The position numbers were made by a program, and so were the translations under genes. Shown in pieces: positions 25,048-39,179 of a DNA stretch of 39,294 bases (position 1 is the first letter of the stretch; each line of letters opens with the position of its first letter). The notes beneath the pieces were generated by a model, which saw only the letters and a list, made by a program, of their open reading frames with translations, did not search any database and was not told the DNA's origin. This stretch comes from a virus, in IMG/VR virus record IMGVR_UViG_3300015199_000007, positions 1-39,294 of that record; one strand, written 5' to 3'.

Positions 25048-25218
25048 GAGTGCGATGCCGCGGAACGCGAATGGTGGTTGCGGGTGAGCGTGGTACGGGG
25101 ACCGGACCGTCCGGCCGCGGCGGCGCGTTACGAGACATTGCGCGCCGCACAGATTGCGCGAGCCCACACGAACTGCGGGACGGATGCGTGCTGCGGCGGA
25201 TGCGGGACGGCGACATGA
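25039..25218 (+). CDS. Hypothetical small protein with Cys cluster (59 aa)
   Basis: Start ATG 25039 overlaps the mini-ORF stop; the stop (25216-25218) overlaps the next start. The C-terminus NCGTDACCGGCGTAT has four clustered cysteines that could bind a metal. The middle is arginine/alanine helical. No family recognised. Confidence 0.5.
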   Translation: MTRECDAAEREWWLRVSVVRGPDRPAAAARYETLRAAQIARAHTNCGTDACCGGCGTAT

Positions 25219-25445
25219 GCGCGCCGCCGAGAGACGGCACACGGGCGGCAGTTCGCTTCTGGGCGCAACGCACGCGCGAGTCCCTAAGGCGTGCGGTGGA
25301 CTTGGCGTTAGCGGCCGTCGCATGTGCGGACGAGTTCTACGGGGCCATTCGGGCGTGCGCCGCCCGCGCGGGGATCGACATGCCATGTGCGGTCGCGGTC
25401 ATCGACATCCGCGGCTACCCGCGGGAGCGGCAGCCCGTACTATGA
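25215..25445 (+). CDS. Hypothetical protein (76 aa)
   Basis: The start overlaps the previous stop and the end overlaps the integrase start by ATGA. The product is helical (VRFWAQRTRESLRRAVDLALAAVACADEF). It is immediately upstream of and coupled to the integrase, so a recombination directionality role is possible but unsupported. Confidence 0.45.
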   Translation: MSAPPRDGTRAAVRFWAQRTRESLRRAVDLALAAVACADEFYGAIRACAARAGIDMPCAVAVIDIRGYPRERQPVL

Positions 25446-26707
25446 GCGCGTTCCGCAAATCCAAGACTCCGGGCGTAAGCGTCCGGCACCAGATCGGATG
25501 CCCTGCGGCCGACCAGGACGGGCCACGATGCCGCTGTAAGCCCGCCTACCGCTCGCAAAAGTGGGGCGTAGGATTCTCGCCATCCTTCCCAACCATCGCC
25601 GCCGCGCAGTCGTGGAAGGCGTCCGCGGTCAAGGGTGAGCGGACGCGCGCCGAACGCGCGTCACGCGGTATCACGTTCGGCGCGCTGGCGTTGCAATGGT
25701 GGGAGGGTGTCGAGGCGGGCTCGATCGGCAAGCGCAAGGGGCGCAAGGACGTGCCCTACACAGCCACGACGCTGGCCGGCTACCGGCGGACTGTTGCCTA
25801 CACGCTCGCGCCGCGCGCATGGTTCCTGGCGGGCAATGGCTCGGTCATGCGGGCCGTCATCGCGGCATCCTCGCACGAGCACGAACCGGCGGCGTCGCTC
25901 GGCCCGGAGCACTGGCAAGCATGGGTCGATGACCTTGCGGCGGGCGGCCTGTCACGATCCCGTATCGCCAATCATCTTGCGGTCGTGTCCGCCATCTATG
26001 GCTGGGCATCACGGGCGACCCGGAAGATCGTCCCGTCGAACCCGACAGTGAGCGTGGAAATGCCGCCAAACGACGAAGTGCGGCGCGAGCGCGTGGCGAC
26101 CGCCGACCATGCCGCAGCACTCCTGGCCGCGCTCGGTGAAGCGGACCGCGTGCCGTACGCCATCGCGTTCTATGCGGGGTTGCGTCGCGGTGAGATCGCG
26201 CGACTGACGTGGGCTGACGTTGATTTCGAGAACATGCGACTGACTGTGCGCGTGGCGAAGTCGGAGGCGGGCACGGGCCGGCAACCGCCGATCGCCGCGC
26301 CGCTCGTGGAGATCCTGCGGGCATGGGATGGCGACGGCGCCGTGTCGTGGCGTCTGCGCGCCGAGGATGGGCAGCTCGTGCCCGTCTCGCCCGTGTCGGT
26401 CATGTCCGGCAAGCTCGCCGCCCGCGCGTCGTCTGCGTGGCTCGCTGCTGGGCTGAAGCCGATCGGGCTTCACGAATGCAGGCACACGTACGCTAGCCTT
26501 CTCGTGGCAGCCGGATACAACCTAAAGGAGATCATGTCCTATTTGGGACATGCCGATCTGACCACGACGAGCCGCTACGTCAAGCTGCTGCCGCAGCCGG
26601 GCGAGGCCTCAGCAGCGGACAGGCTAAACGCCTATCTGGGGGCGCCGGATATCCGACGCGAGCCCGTCTGCGCTGAGCGGTCCCGCGCGGATCATGGCGA
26701 CGCATAG
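25442..26707 (+). CDS. int: Tyrosine integrase
   Basis: The 421-aa tyrosine recombinase has the catalytic residues in order: R248 (AGLRRGE), H344 and R347 (HECRH), H370 (YLGHAD) and nucleophile Y379 (TSRYVKL). The N-terminal part includes an arm-binding-like segment with a Cys/His cluster (IGCPAADQDGPRCRCKPAY), then a core-binding SAM-like domain (about 77-195). The attP lies 139 bp downstream. It integrates the phage by recombination between attP and the 3' half of a host tRNA gene. Transcription probably comes from 24466, which has a repressor operator. Confidence 0.93.
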   Translation: MSAFRKSKTPGVSVRHQIGCPAADQDGPRCRCKPAYRSQKWGVGFSPSFPTIAAAQSWKASAVKGERTRAERASRGITFGALALQWWEGVEAGSIGKRKGRKDVPYTATTLAGYRRTVAYTLAPRAWFLAGNGSVMRAVIAASSHEHEPAASLGPEHWQAWVDDLAAGGLSRSRIANHLAVVSAIYGWASRATRKIVPSNPTVSVEMPPNDEVRRERVATADHAAALLAALGEADRVPYAIAFYAGLRRGEIARLTWADVDFENMRLTVRVAKSEAGTGRQPPIAAPLVEILRAWDGDGAVSWRLRAEDGQLVPVSPVSVMSGKLAARASSAWLAAGLKPIGLHECRHTYASLLVAAGYNLKEIMSYLGHADLTTTSRYVKLLPQPGEASAADRLNAYLGAPDIRREPVCAERSRADHGDA

Positions 26708-35580: not shown

Positions 35581-35970
35581 GTGGACCGGCGCAGGCCGTA
35601 TGTCGCGCTCGATATCGAGTATTTGGGACGTGACCGTATCGAGGCTATGTTCGACGGACACGCACACGCTGGTCCGTATGCGTTTCTGGCGTTGATCCTA
35701 GAGGCGGGGAAGCCGCACAATGTGGGCCGCCCGCTAACGATGCGGTTCCGAGCGTTTGCCCGCCTGGCGCGGTGCCCGGAGGATGTGGCACGGGCGATCT
35801 TCGCTACGGCGATCGGGGAAGGGCTGCTCACTGTCGTTGCTATCACGGGCGACGGGTTTACGGTTACCTTCCCGGACGCCGCGGGCTGGGAGGCGCGCAC
35901 CGCGCCCCTGACGGCGGCGGAGCGCGCACATAACTACCGCGGCCGGCAAGCCGCGTCACGGGCTACGTGA
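35581..35970 (+). CDS. Probable replication initiator (winged-helix, 129 aa)
   Basis: GTG 35581 is 4 bases after the previous stop. The product resembles N-terminal domains of phage replisome organisers: a start RRRPYVALDIEYLGRDRI, a helical middle LTMRFRAFARLARCPEDVARAIFATAIGEGLL and a wing VVAITGDGFTVTF. The last codons run into long repeats that look like its own binding sites, as in lambda O. Assigned by pattern and context. Confidence 0.55.
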   Translation: MDRRRPYVALDIEYLGRDRIEAMFDGHAHAGPYAFLALILEAGKPHNVGRPLTMRFRAFARLARCPEDVARAIFATAIGEGLLTVVAITGDGFTVTFPDAAGWEARTAPLTAAERAHNYRGRQAASRAT

Positions 35971-36063
35971 CGCGTCACGTTCGCGTCACGGCCTGCGTGA
36001 CGCGTCACGTTCGCGTCACGCAATATCACGCGCGAACGACAGAGACAGAGGCAGAGACAGAGT
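35967..36063. other. Candidate replication origin with iterons
   Basis: A 24-bp unit at 35967-35990 is repeated exactly at 35997-36020, a 30-bp period. Each contains the palindrome GTGACGCGTCAC plus a further CGTCACG. Additional CGTCACG copies flank them (35954-35960, part of 36026-36032). A purine-rich tract of GACAGA-type repeats (36038-36062) follows and could be an unwinding or loading site. It overlaps the end of the initiator-like gene. Confidence 0.6.
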
Positions 36064-36113: not shown

Positions 36114-36506
36114 ATGGAGCCGAAACGCCCGAGCATCACGCCCGCACAAATCCCGATGTTCCTCGGAGTCATCGCTGAAGGGCTGCACGCCTTCGGCGTG
36201 TTCACGCTCACGAAGGCGCAGACCACGAGCCTGACGCAGATGGCGACGCTCGCAGTCGGCGCCGGCCTCGTTGACGCGATCCTGCGCGGCTTCCGCAACA
36301 TCGGGCTCCGCCCCGCCGCCGTGAACGCGCCTAAGCCATCCTCCGTCGTTGCGGTTGCCGCAACGCCCGTTCTATCCTCCCCGGCCACGCCTGCCGTCAC
36401 GGACGCTCCCAGCGCCCCCGCAGCGGCATTCGTGCCGTTCATCGTCGACACAACCGCGAGCGACGCGAACGCGCAGGACGCTTCGCCCGCACCGGCCGTC
36501 GCCTGA
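36114..36506 (+). CDS. Putative holin (130 aa)
   Basis: ATG 36114 follows AGAGGAGG. There are two hydrophobic segments at about residues 13-32 (IPMFLGVIAEGLHAFGVFTL) and 43-60 (MATLAVGAGLVDAILRGF), then a long alanine/proline-rich tail (68-130). This matches small phage holins and the gene overlaps the endolysin by one base. It would form the lesions that let the endolysin act and time lysis. Confidence 0.7.
   Translation: MEPKRPSITPAQIPMFLGVIAEGLHAFGVFTLTKAQTTSLTQMATLAVGAGLVDAILRGFRNIGLRPAAVNAPKPSSVVAVAATPVLSSPATPAVTDAPSAPAAAFVPFIVDTTASDANAQDASPAPAVA
36349..36363. promoter_or_regulatory. Operator-like site inside the holin gene
   Basis: TTGCGGTTGCCGCAA, nearly the perfect palindrome, is encoded in the low-complexity tail where the coding constraint is weak. 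It precedes the endolysin and could act as a road-block in the lysogen. Confidence 0.5.
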
Positions 36507-37249
36507 TGACGTTCGCACCGGCCGCATCACTCGCGCTCTGGCTACGTCGCTACCACTACCGCAACGTCAAAGCAACGCAATACCTCCACGCGCTCCGGCA
36601 CGCCAAGACCGCGGCCGACCAGGCCGCGGCACGCGCACAGCTCGCGCGCTGGGAAGCACTCATGAGCGCCGCACAGAGCATGGTCCACCGGCGCGAAACC
36701 CAAATCGCCGCGCAGAAGCCTGCGCGCATCATGGAATGGATGCCCGGCGCAATCCACATGCCACGGGCCGGCTCTGGCACGCACGCCAGCGGATACGCCC
36801 CGAAAGGGCTGCTGCACACGACAGACGGCATGAGCGACGCCACGGGCACGCTCGACGGTAACCGCGACTGGCCGAACTTTGAGGTTATCCGCGACGGCCG
36901 CATCATCCAATACTTCCCGGTCAACGCATCGTCACGCGCGCTCGTCCACAACGGATACCCGGAAACGAACAATGGCGGCCCGTGCCAGATCGAGATAGTC
37001 TCACTAGAGCCGATGACGCTAACGCCGTCGCAGCGCACATCCCTGAAACGACTCATGCGGTTCATCGAGGCGAACCATGGCGTGCAACGCGCATCCCATG
37101 TCCGATGGGGGCACGATGGCGCATACCGGCTCCGCGCGGGCGTCTGGGTGGGTCTGCACGGATGGTGCGGGCACGAGCACGTCCCGGAGAACGATCACAC
37201 AGATCCGTCTGGGCCGGGCACCATCGCCATCAGCGACCTTCTCTCCTAG
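36506..37249 (+). CDS. Endolysin, N-acetylmuramoyl-L-alanine amidase type
   Basis: The 247-aa product has the amidase_2 pattern: GLLHTTDG with zinc ligand H104, the strand WPNFEVIRDGRIIQYFP, LVHNGYPETNNGGPCQIEIV, and GWCGHEHVPENDHTDPG-type end (H223-H225, D230-H231-D233) with the remaining ligands. Residues 1-75 are a basic helical extension, possibly for wall or membrane binding. It cuts the bond between muramic acid and the stem peptide. No signal peptide, so it depends on the holin. Confidence 0.85.
   Translation: MTFAPAASLALWLRRYHYRNVKATQYLHALRHAKTAADQAAARAQLARWEALMSAAQSMVHRRETQIAAQKPARIMEWMPGAIHMPRAGSGTHASGYAPKGLLHTTDGMSDATGTLDGNRDWPNFEVIRDGRIIQYFPVNASSRALVHNGYPETNNGGPCQIEIVSLEPMTLTPSQRTSLKRLMRFIEANHGVQRASHVRWGHDGAYRLRAGVWVGLHGWCGHEHVPENDHTDPSGPGTIAISDLLS
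36844..36872. repeat. 29-bp inverted repeat shared with the 31152 gene
   Basis: Exact reverse complement of 31501-31529. In the endolysin it encodes GTLDGNRDW, which appears to belong to the amidase core, so this is more likely the source copy. Confidence 0.9.
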
Positions 37250-37257
37250 TCGCACTG

Positions 37258-37272
37258 TTGCGGTTACCGCAA
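37258..37272. promoter_or_regulatory. Operator between endolysin and the leader-peptide ORF
   Basis: TTGCGGTTACCGCAA is a perfect palindrome around the central base. It lies 8 bases after the endolysin stop, with no good promoter boxes beside it. Confidence 0.6.
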
Positions 37273-37298
37273 CATCCCTAACCGAAGGAGGCGCCCCG

Positions 37299-37406
37299 AT
37301 GCGCAAACTATGGCACGCACTCGCAGCGTGCGCCGCAGCACTCGCCGTGGCACTCGCTGCGTGCGCCGCAGCACTCGCCATCAGCGACCTGTTTGCGCGA
37401 GCGTGA
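37299..37406 (+). pseudogene. Truncated secreted-protein start (35 aa)
   Basis: ATG 37299 has the same ribosome binding site and leader as the metalloprotease gene at 38206: MRKLWHALAACAAALAVALA against MRKLRHALAACAAALATLAL. The signal region is internally duplicated and the frame ends after AISDLFARA, without a mature protein. It is a broken duplicate, or a peptide with only a signal sequence. The following segment carries the inserted methyltransferase. Confidence 0.6.
37359..37393 (+). repeat. 35-bp direct repeat, left of the inserted gene
   Basis: Identical to 38083-38117. A 15-bp part of it (CGCCATCAGCGACCT) also occurs at the end of the endolysin gene (37225-37239). The pair brackets the AT-richer methyltransferase segment. 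Confidence 0.85.
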
Positions 37407-37460
37407 GCGTGGCGAGTGCTGCACAGGCTTGCTTGCCAATCGCAGGAGTTGGAGAAAATC

Positions 37461-38168
37461 GTGTCTAGTCATACTCCCATTGTACCACTACGCATTTTAG
37501 TAGCCTGTGAGTTTAGTGGTCGGGTACGTGAGGCTTTTCGCAAAATGGGTCACGATGCTTGGAGTTGCGACATTGAACCAGCAGCAGACGGTAGCCCATA
37601 TCACATACAGGACGATGTACTAAAACACCTGGGCGATGGTTGGAATATGATGATTGCTCACCCACCTTGCACCTACCTAAGCTATGTCGGCAACCGTCAC
37701 TGGAACAAGCCAGGACGAGCAGAGTTGCGTGAGGACGCACTACGGTTCTTTGTAGCACTAGCGGAAGCACCGATACCAAAAATCTGCGTAGAGAACCCGC
37801 TAGGCTACGCAGGCAAGGCATATCGCAAGTACGACCAGATAATTCAACCCTACTATTGGGGCGAACCATATCAGAAACGTACTTGCCTGTGGCTGAAAGG
37901 TTTACCGCCACTAACGTACGACAAGGAGAACGCCGTTAAGCCACCGCCGTTGTTCTATCTTGGCACTACGGGTAAACCTATCAACTGGGTAGAGGGTATC
38001 AAGGGTATGAGTGCGAAAGACCGACAGAAAGCACGTAATACGACCTTTCAAGGAATAGCAAATGCGATGGCAGAACAGTGGGGCGTGCGCCGCAGCACTC
38101 GCCATCAGCGACCTGTTGCGGTAACCGCAACATCCCAACCTTCTCTCCTAGTCGCACCGTTGCGGTAA
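37461..38168 (+). CDS. Cytosine-C5 methyltransferase-like protein, recent insertion
   Basis: GTG 37461 follows GGAGTTGGAG. The 235-aa product has RILVACEFSGRVREAF (AdoMet motif I), SCDIEP, and AHPPCTYLS with the Pro-Cys catalytic pair (C70), as in C5 methyltransferases of phages. Composition and codon use are clearly more AT-rich than all neighbours. The last 27 residues (RRSTRHQRPVAVTATSQPS and onward) are read from the flanking 35-bp repeat and the operator region, so the original C-terminus was lost or replaced. It lies between 35-bp direct repeats and looks like a horizontally acquired cargo gene. Confidence 0.8.
   Translation: MSSHTPIVPLRILVACEFSGRVREAFRKMGHDAWSCDIEPAADGSPYHIQDDVLKHLGDGWNMMIAHPPCTYLSYVGNRHWNKPGRAELREDALRFFVALAEAPIPKICVENPLGYAGKAYRKYDQIIQPYYWGEPYQKRTCLWLKGLPPLTYDKENAVKPPPLFYLGTTGKPINWVEGIKGMSAKDRQKARNTTFQGIANAMAEQWGVRRSTRHQRPVAVTATSQPSLLVAPLR
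38083..38117 (+). repeat. 35-bp direct repeat, right of the inserted gene
   Basis: Identical to 37359-37393. It runs directly into the operator at 38116. Confidence 0.85.
38116..38130. promoter_or_regulatory. Operator, first of a pair before the metalloprotease gene
   Basis: TTGCGGTAACCGCAA, a perfect palindrome around the central base. It is 44 bp from the next identical copy. Confidence 0.6.
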
Positions 38169-38174
38169 CCGCAA
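38160..38174. promoter_or_regulatory. Operator, second of a pair before the metalloprotease gene
   Basis: TTGCGGTAACCGCAA, same sequence as at 38116, 32 bp before the ATG at 38206. The surrounding 90 bp duplicate 37249-37338. Confidence 0.6.
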
Positions 38175-38205
38175 CATCCCAACCCTAACCGAAGGAGGCG
38201 CCCCG

Positions 38206-38763
38206 ATGCGCAAACTACGGCACGCACTCGCTGCGTGCGCCGCAGCACTCGCCACGCTCGCGCTCGCGCAACCCGCGAGCGCACTCCCGTACTATCCGCA
38301 AACATGGCTGAACACGGCGGCGGTCATCGCCAATAACTACTGGACACCTATCTTCGGCTTCCTCGGAACCAACGCATTCTACCCATCCGTTGCGGGCGGA
38401 TGGTGCAACACGCGCGGCGGCCTAACCTACATCGAGAAGGTGCCCACACCGGGCGACCCGACATACAGCAACGGCGCCTATGTGCTCGCGTACACCACCC
38501 TGGGCGCACCATGCCACATGACGATGACCACGGAACTGTACGGCGCGTCCGCGACCGCGCAAGCACTCTGGCAGCTCTACTGCTACATCATTGTTCACGA
38601 AGTAGGGCACGCCGTGCTCGGGCCCAACTTCTTTATCAACTCCAACGGCTTCGATCCCGCGCACTCCGCCGACCCGGCCAGTGTAATGAACGGCGTGCTC
38701 GGGTACGACCCCGGCTCCCCGCGTATGCCCGGCGGCTGCCTCCGCGGATACCCGGCACCCTAA
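38206..38763 (+). CDS. Secreted zinc metalloprotease-like protein
   Basis: The 185-aa product has a signal peptide (residues 1-26, cleavage expected after PASA). HEVGH at 131-135 gives two zinc ligands and the catalytic Glu, H153 in AHSADPASVM is a good third ligand, and M161 fits the Met-turn. This matches the matrixin pattern HExxHxxGxxH...M with about 12 extra residues before the third His. Four mature cysteines (67, 103, 126, 178) could form two disulfides. It may cut host surface or wall proteins, help lysis, or alter the lysogen. ATG 38206 follows AAGGAGG. Confidence 0.72.
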   Translation: MRKLRHALAACAAALATLALAQPASALPYYPQTWLNTAAVIANNYWTPIFGFLGTNAFYPSVAGGWCNTRGGLTYIEKVPTPGDPTYSNGAYVLAYTTLGAPCHMTMTTELYGASATAQALWQLYCYIIVHEVGHAVLGPNFFINSNGFDPAHSADPASVMNGVLGYDPGSPRMPGGCLRGYPAP

Positions 38764-39086: not shown

Positions 39087-39179
39087 ATGCACAAGACGAC
39101 ACGCAAGCTCGCGCTGGCGCTTCTGACGGTAACGATCATCGGGATCGCCAAGCTCGTCACACGCGGCACGCACAGATGA
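39087..39179 (+). CDS. Membrane micropeptide (30 aa)
   Basis: ATG 39087 gives MHKTTRKLALALLTVTIIGI followed by AKLVTRGTHR: a basic N-terminus, one hydrophobic span and a basic end. It may be a small membrane helper of lysis given its position, but no family is recognised and the ribosome binding site is weak. Confidence 0.4.
   Translation: MHKTTRKLALALLTVTIIGIAKLVTRGTHR

Follow-up and report, generated by a model that had tools for sequence, protein, structure and literature searches.

The last part of the window encodes an exported protein with a zincin-like motif in which the candidate third zinc-binding His is displaced downstream, and both the secretion signal and the motif are supported by the sequence. 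The window, the whole stretch of DNA analysed, is a viral record of 39,294 bases, and the phage it comes from is tailed and temperate. The gene is real, and its product (hereafter P0001) is a fair lead but not a demonstrated matrixin. The reading that we tentatively favour is that P0001 is a secreted, lysis-accessory metalloprotease-like protein that would cut envelope proteins, by analogy with the Listeria protease Mtz. The gene, its leader, its motifs and its position are read directly from the DNA, and the features concerned are collected in Table 1.

Table 1. Positions in the window of the gene for P0001, its motifs and the surrounding elements
Feature	Position	Strand	Basis or remark
Integrase	25154-26707		phage temperate
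Candidate holin of 130 aa with two stretches of moderate hydrophobicity	36114-36506	+	no family match
Endolysin, N-acetylmuramoyl-L-alanine amidase	36506-37249	+	Amidase_2 just below Pfam cut-off; PHROG endolysin
Duplicated endolysin-tail / palindrome / SD / protease-leader segment, first copy	37236-37351	+	sequence repeat
Palindrome GTTGCGGTTACCGCAAC	37257-37273	.	past endolysin stop; 25 nt before truncated leader ORF
Hydrophobic leader ORF of 35 aa, repeating the protease 5' end in truncated form	37299-37406	+	left by first copy
35-nt perfect direct repeat, left of methyltransferase	37359-37393	+	partner 38083-38117
DNA methyltransferase gene	37416-38168	+	phrog_757, E 1e-56; GC3 about 0.5
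35-nt direct repeat, right copy	38083-38117	+	partner 37359-37393
Palindrome GTTGCGGTAACCGCAAC	38115-38131	.	sequence
Duplicated segment, second copy, runs into intact P0001 gene	38138-38253	+	sequence repeat
Palindrome GTTGCGGTAACCGCAAC	38159-38175	.	30 nt before P0001 ATG
Shine-Dalgarno (SD) GAAGGAGG	38191-38198	+	ends 7 nt before ATG of P0001 gene
Secreted zincin-like protein gene (P0001), 185 aa	38206-38763	+	ORF call, codon usage, SD
Predicted Sec signal peptide, residues 1-26	38206-38283	+	cleavage after ASA by eye; hydropathy
HEVGH, residues 131-135	38596-38610	+	sequence
HSADPASVM, residues 153-161, with H153 as candidate third zinc ligand and M161 as putative Met-turn	38662-38688	+	sequence

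The open reading frame begins with an ATG at 38206, and its boundaries are exactly those given in the initial annotation. The GC contents of its codon positions 1-3 are 0.60/0.55/0.79, and the third-position value is like that of other phage genes (0.74-0.83). Together with the Shine-Dalgarno sequence, this phage-like codon usage makes it a credible gene. The leader is of the Sec/SPI type, with RKLRH, a hydrophobic core and a cleavage site between ASA and LP placed by eye and by hydropathy, which bears out the signal peptide proposed earlier. The mature part contains four Cys, an even number.

H131, E132, H135, H153 and the SVM at residues 159-161 sit where the initial annotation had placed them. 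H153 is the sole His downstream of HEVGH. It opens a segment separated from HEVGH by 17 residues, and M161 lies eight residues past it in the sequence. The earlier remark that the spacing to the third ligand exceeds that of classic matrixins also holds, with 12 extra residues before H153. When mature P0001 was shuffled 400,000 times, HExxH appeared in 572 shuffles, and HExGH followed by H[ST]x[DN]Px[AST][LIVM]M, a pattern composed after the P0001 sequence was known, appeared in none. The joint presence of HEVGH and HSADPASVM by chance is very unlikely.

P0001 carries the HEXXH signature of the zincins (clan MA) in its HEVGH. The metzincins (MA(M)) are defined by the motif HEXXHXXGXX(H/D), in which the ligand stands three residues past the Gly (PMC3427221). 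The strict motif is absent from P0001, which has L138 at the Gly place and N141 at the ligand place; Gly is residue 139, shifted by one, and residue 142 is Phe. The Peptidase_M10 profile did not match P0001, either with Pfam at an E-value of 1 or in the six-frame search at an E-value of 10. A matrixin HMM built from about 30 actinobacterial matrixins collected in this analysis scores P0001 at 7.2 bits, inside the range of HEVGH-keeping shuffled controls, and aligns to it solely at HEVGH and the neighbouring residues. With no profile match, no strict motif and an HMM signal no higher than HEVGH gives by itself, the matrixin-like identity originally assigned to P0001 is not supported as membership in the matrixins. 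AlphaFold2 gave low confidence overall, both for P0001 alone (mean pLDDT 35) and with 13 long-spacing proteins as rows (mean pLDDT 43), and the highest values were found in the HEVGH helix at residues 118-137 (pLDDT about 66).

A Glu-zincin identity is ruled out because no Glu follows E132. The same absence is consistent with a very improbable reading of P0001 as an Asp-zincin-like peptidase and not a metzincin, with D150 or D156 as its third ligand or with zinc bound just by two His and water. Asp serves as the third zinc ligand in Asp-zincins (PMC3890501), and D150 and D156 flank H153. However, HSADPASVM resembles the stretch of matrixins that carries the third His and the Met-turn, with the usual 8-residue step, and such a stretch would be needless in an Asp-zincin. 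The snapalysin and Asp-zincin profiles of Pfam and NCBIfam did not match P0001.

The residues at the classical places also bear on the alternative that P0001, though exported and disulphide-bonded, has no protease activity, its HExxH being incidental or belonging to a decayed site that has ceased to bind zinc. L138 and N141 fit such a protein, as do the lack of any family match and of any detectable similarity to matrixins apart from HEVGH. On the other hand, E132 and both His of HExxH are intact, and the rarity by chance of the combined HEVGH and HSADPASVM speaks against an incidental motif. On balance, we regard an inactive protein as somewhat unlikely.

Genome contigs were scanned for HE-x-GH, a variable gap and then H-[S/C/T]-x4-[S/C/T]-[hydrophobic]-M. 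At least 103 in-frame proteins fit this layout of HExGH plus H(C/S)x4(C/S)xM, their His and Met being imposed by the scan pattern itself, and the displaced third His therefore has natural parallels. Among the matches listed (at least 103 proteins), the spacer is 13-22 residues long with a mode of 22. Of the 103 listed matches, 94 carry Gly at the classical place, though the pattern left that place free, and 76 carry the archaemetzincin Cys pair (HCx4CxM), where the pattern made Cys optional. At the classical third-ligand place, 6 of these 103 have His, 49 Asn and 27 Asp. Some long-spacing proteins with His or Asp at that place may use it, as in the serralysin-like L042 (HELGHALGLKH). Most of the long-spacing proteins examined are sub-threshold relatives of metzincins, archaemetzincins or M6/M12 in Pfam and NCBIfam. 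We infer from these sequences that, in one set of metzincin-like proteins, the third His is borne on a longer loop.

P0001 aligns with this group through the motif alone, and motif-keeping shuffles scored as high as P0001 against the long-spacing proteins in 28 of 994 and 68 of 998 cases. As a result, the layout can be said to have parallels, and homology of P0001 to the long-spacing group is not established. The loci of the group are mostly unannotated and metzincin-like (L014, L006, L039, L065, L096, L115, L121 and at least about 95 others), and they are widespread, occurring in Actinomycetota, Bacteroidota, Poseidoniales and others.

By sequence comparison, P0001 is an orphan within the databases and genomes searched. 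It matched no family in the Pfam, PHROGs and NCBIfam profile libraries, and no sequence relative was found in the PDB by phmmer, among phages and plasmids by tblastn, or in viral and genome contigs by peptide-pattern scans. No homologue reached an E-value of 1e-3 in six-frame searches of two genome sets, 395 from one actinobacterial class and 396 sampled across the actinobacterial phylum. The strict HSxDP signature, with classical or long spacing, was absent from the viral contigs scanned. Six weak matches (E 0.005-0.017) have been dismissed, since none has a match to HExxH and their alignments are chance-like, and two matches of the motif scan of viral contigs have been dismissed as unrelated.

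The left end of the window carries terminase, portal, head protease and capsid genes, and the right end the lysis region. The terminase and endolysin are about 23-34% identical to their Streptomyces phage counterparts (27-34% for the endolysin). This likeness and a GC content of roughly 65% suggest a high-GC Gram-positive host, which is probably actinobacterial. A search with the endolysin for prophage kin in 395 actinobacterial genomes, at an E-value of 1e-12, found none, and a search with TerL gave one weak, uninformative viral match.

The initial annotation placed P0001 behind a holin and an endolysin. It does lie downstream of the endolysin, but a methyltransferase gene intervenes, and the holin is a candidate that matches no family in Pfam or PHROGs, which leaves the endolysin as the one supported lysis gene. 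Two 30-nt copies of CGCGTCACGGGCTACGTGACGCGTCACGTT, 93% identical and with inverted-repeat character, occupy 35952-36011, just before the lysis region. Downstream of P0001 there are ORFs of 103 aa and 30 aa, and the record ends soon after. The 30-aa ORF (39087-39179) encodes a hydrophobic peptide, MHKTTRKLALALLTVTIIGIAKLVTRGTHR, possibly an extra small membrane lysis protein.

The methyltransferase is up to 50% identical to phage methylases of many hosts, and the GC content of its gene is about 51%, against 65%. The gene is bracketed by the two copies of a segment of about 116 nt, which differ by 4 substitutions and a 5-nt indel, and its final codons and stop derive from duplicated DNA. A 30-nt inverted repeat is likewise present around it, beside the 35-nt direct repeats. 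A plain assembly duplication is a less likely source of the copies because they have diverged. We infer that the original order was endolysin-protease, with P0001 directly behind the endolysin stop and a palindrome before the duplication event.

Two perfect operators had been reported ahead of P0001. The palindromes are indeed perfect, but there are three of them in this region (37257, 38115 and 38159); they belong to a dispersed family, and their number near P0001 is partly a product of the duplication. The window contains five perfect copies of GTTGCGG-N3-CCGCAAC, and 24 sites with up to 3 mismatches where 5.8 are expected from shuffles. The sites include 4683, 20299, 24493, 28223, 29321, 32895, 36348, 37257, 38115 and 38159. 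Several copies stand just 5' of gene starts, sometimes by 25-30 nt, and others lie inside genes; the copies before P0001 are able to pair with each other in RNA. It is plausible that the palindromes ahead of P0001 act as operators, and possible that the dispersed palindrome marks repressor or regulatory sites.

This arrangement also bears on a distinctly unlikely alternative, namely that P0001 is the product of a moron with a promoter of its own. Expressed in lysogens, it would be secreted and, as a protease, change the surface of the host or the medium, for example to block superinfection or to feed or protect the host. The phage is temperate, P0001 has a secretion signal, and its gene stands at the end of the right arm behind the endolysin with palindromes and a Shine-Dalgarno sequence of its own. 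However, a scan that suits such organisms poorly found no sigma-70-like promoter in the P0001 region. The palindromes, if bound by a lysogeny repressor, would silence P0001 in lysogens; no repressor was recognised among the proteins scanned.

The reading of P0001 as a lysis accessory has a published precedent. Listeria Mtz is a Sec-secreted metzincin of the mtz-tim pair, of phage origin and prophage-borne downstream of holin-lysin (PMC8235301). It cleaves the lipoprotein Tim, and cells co-expressing Mtz and Tim are more sensitive to phage lysis and release about 5-fold more virions (PMC8235301). This prophage location weakens the earlier view that lysis cassettes seldom contain proteases of this kind (PMC8235301). 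P0001 likewise belongs to a phage, is secreted as judged from its leader, and lies downstream of a candidate holin and the endolysin with the methyltransferase between. An adjoining Tim-like partner was not found, as neither the 103-aa nor the 30-aa ORF has a Sec leader plus mature domain.

On the model of Mtz cutting Tim and thereby sensitising cells to holin-lysin, the right-end lysis region would express P0001 late, the host Sec system would carry it out of the cell, and it would fold there with at most two disulphides. H131, H135 and, via the long loop, H153 would bind zinc above the turn at M161, with E132 as the putative catalytic base. P0001 may then cleave a host envelope protein, or a few of them, and so allow more complete lysis of the cell by the amidase endolysin. 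Zinc binding, proteolysis, the substrate and the role in lysis are all proposed here.

If P0001 is active, the idea from Listeria that phage-exported proteases aid endolysins would extend to high-GC, probably actinobacterial, hosts, and it would become clear that a longer loop can provide metzincin-type sites with their third zinc ligand. A broader proposal, that P0001 represents a new zincin family, so far of one phage, in which a 12-residue loop displaces the matrixin-like segment of third His and Met-turn and which serves high-GC Gram-positive phages as an extracellular lysis-accessory protease, is unlikely as it stands. The published Listeria precedent makes P0001 less surprising; as an orphan with a displaced third His it is still of some interest. 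The displaced-His archaemetzincin-like group is a testable structural question of its own.

By comparison with matrixins (Peptidase_M10, PF00413), P0001 has HExGH and HSxDPxSxM with the usual 8-residue step from His to Met, but its third His comes 12 residues later, its Gly is off by one, the profile does not match and a matrixin-type C-terminal helix is not apparent. Snapalysin (M7) and the Asp-zincins are likewise small exported or compact HExxH enzymes, some of them from high-GC Gram-positive organisms, but they have Asp at the classical place, where P0001 has N141/F142. The archaemetzincin-like proteins with a displaced H-C-x4-C-x-M share the long spacing (13-22 residues there, 17 in P0001), but place 8 is Gly in 94 of the 103 listed and Leu in P0001, and where most of them have a Cys pair, P0001 has Ser/Ser. 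Listeria Mtz, compared by its description, is also a Sec-exported putative zinc protease, encoded by temperate phages downstream of holin-lysin; it has a Met-turn, for which M161 is the candidate in P0001. Its spacing is the classical HEXXHXXGXX(H/D) and it has the lipoprotein partner Tim, whereas the third His of P0001 is displaced and no partner is recognised beside it.
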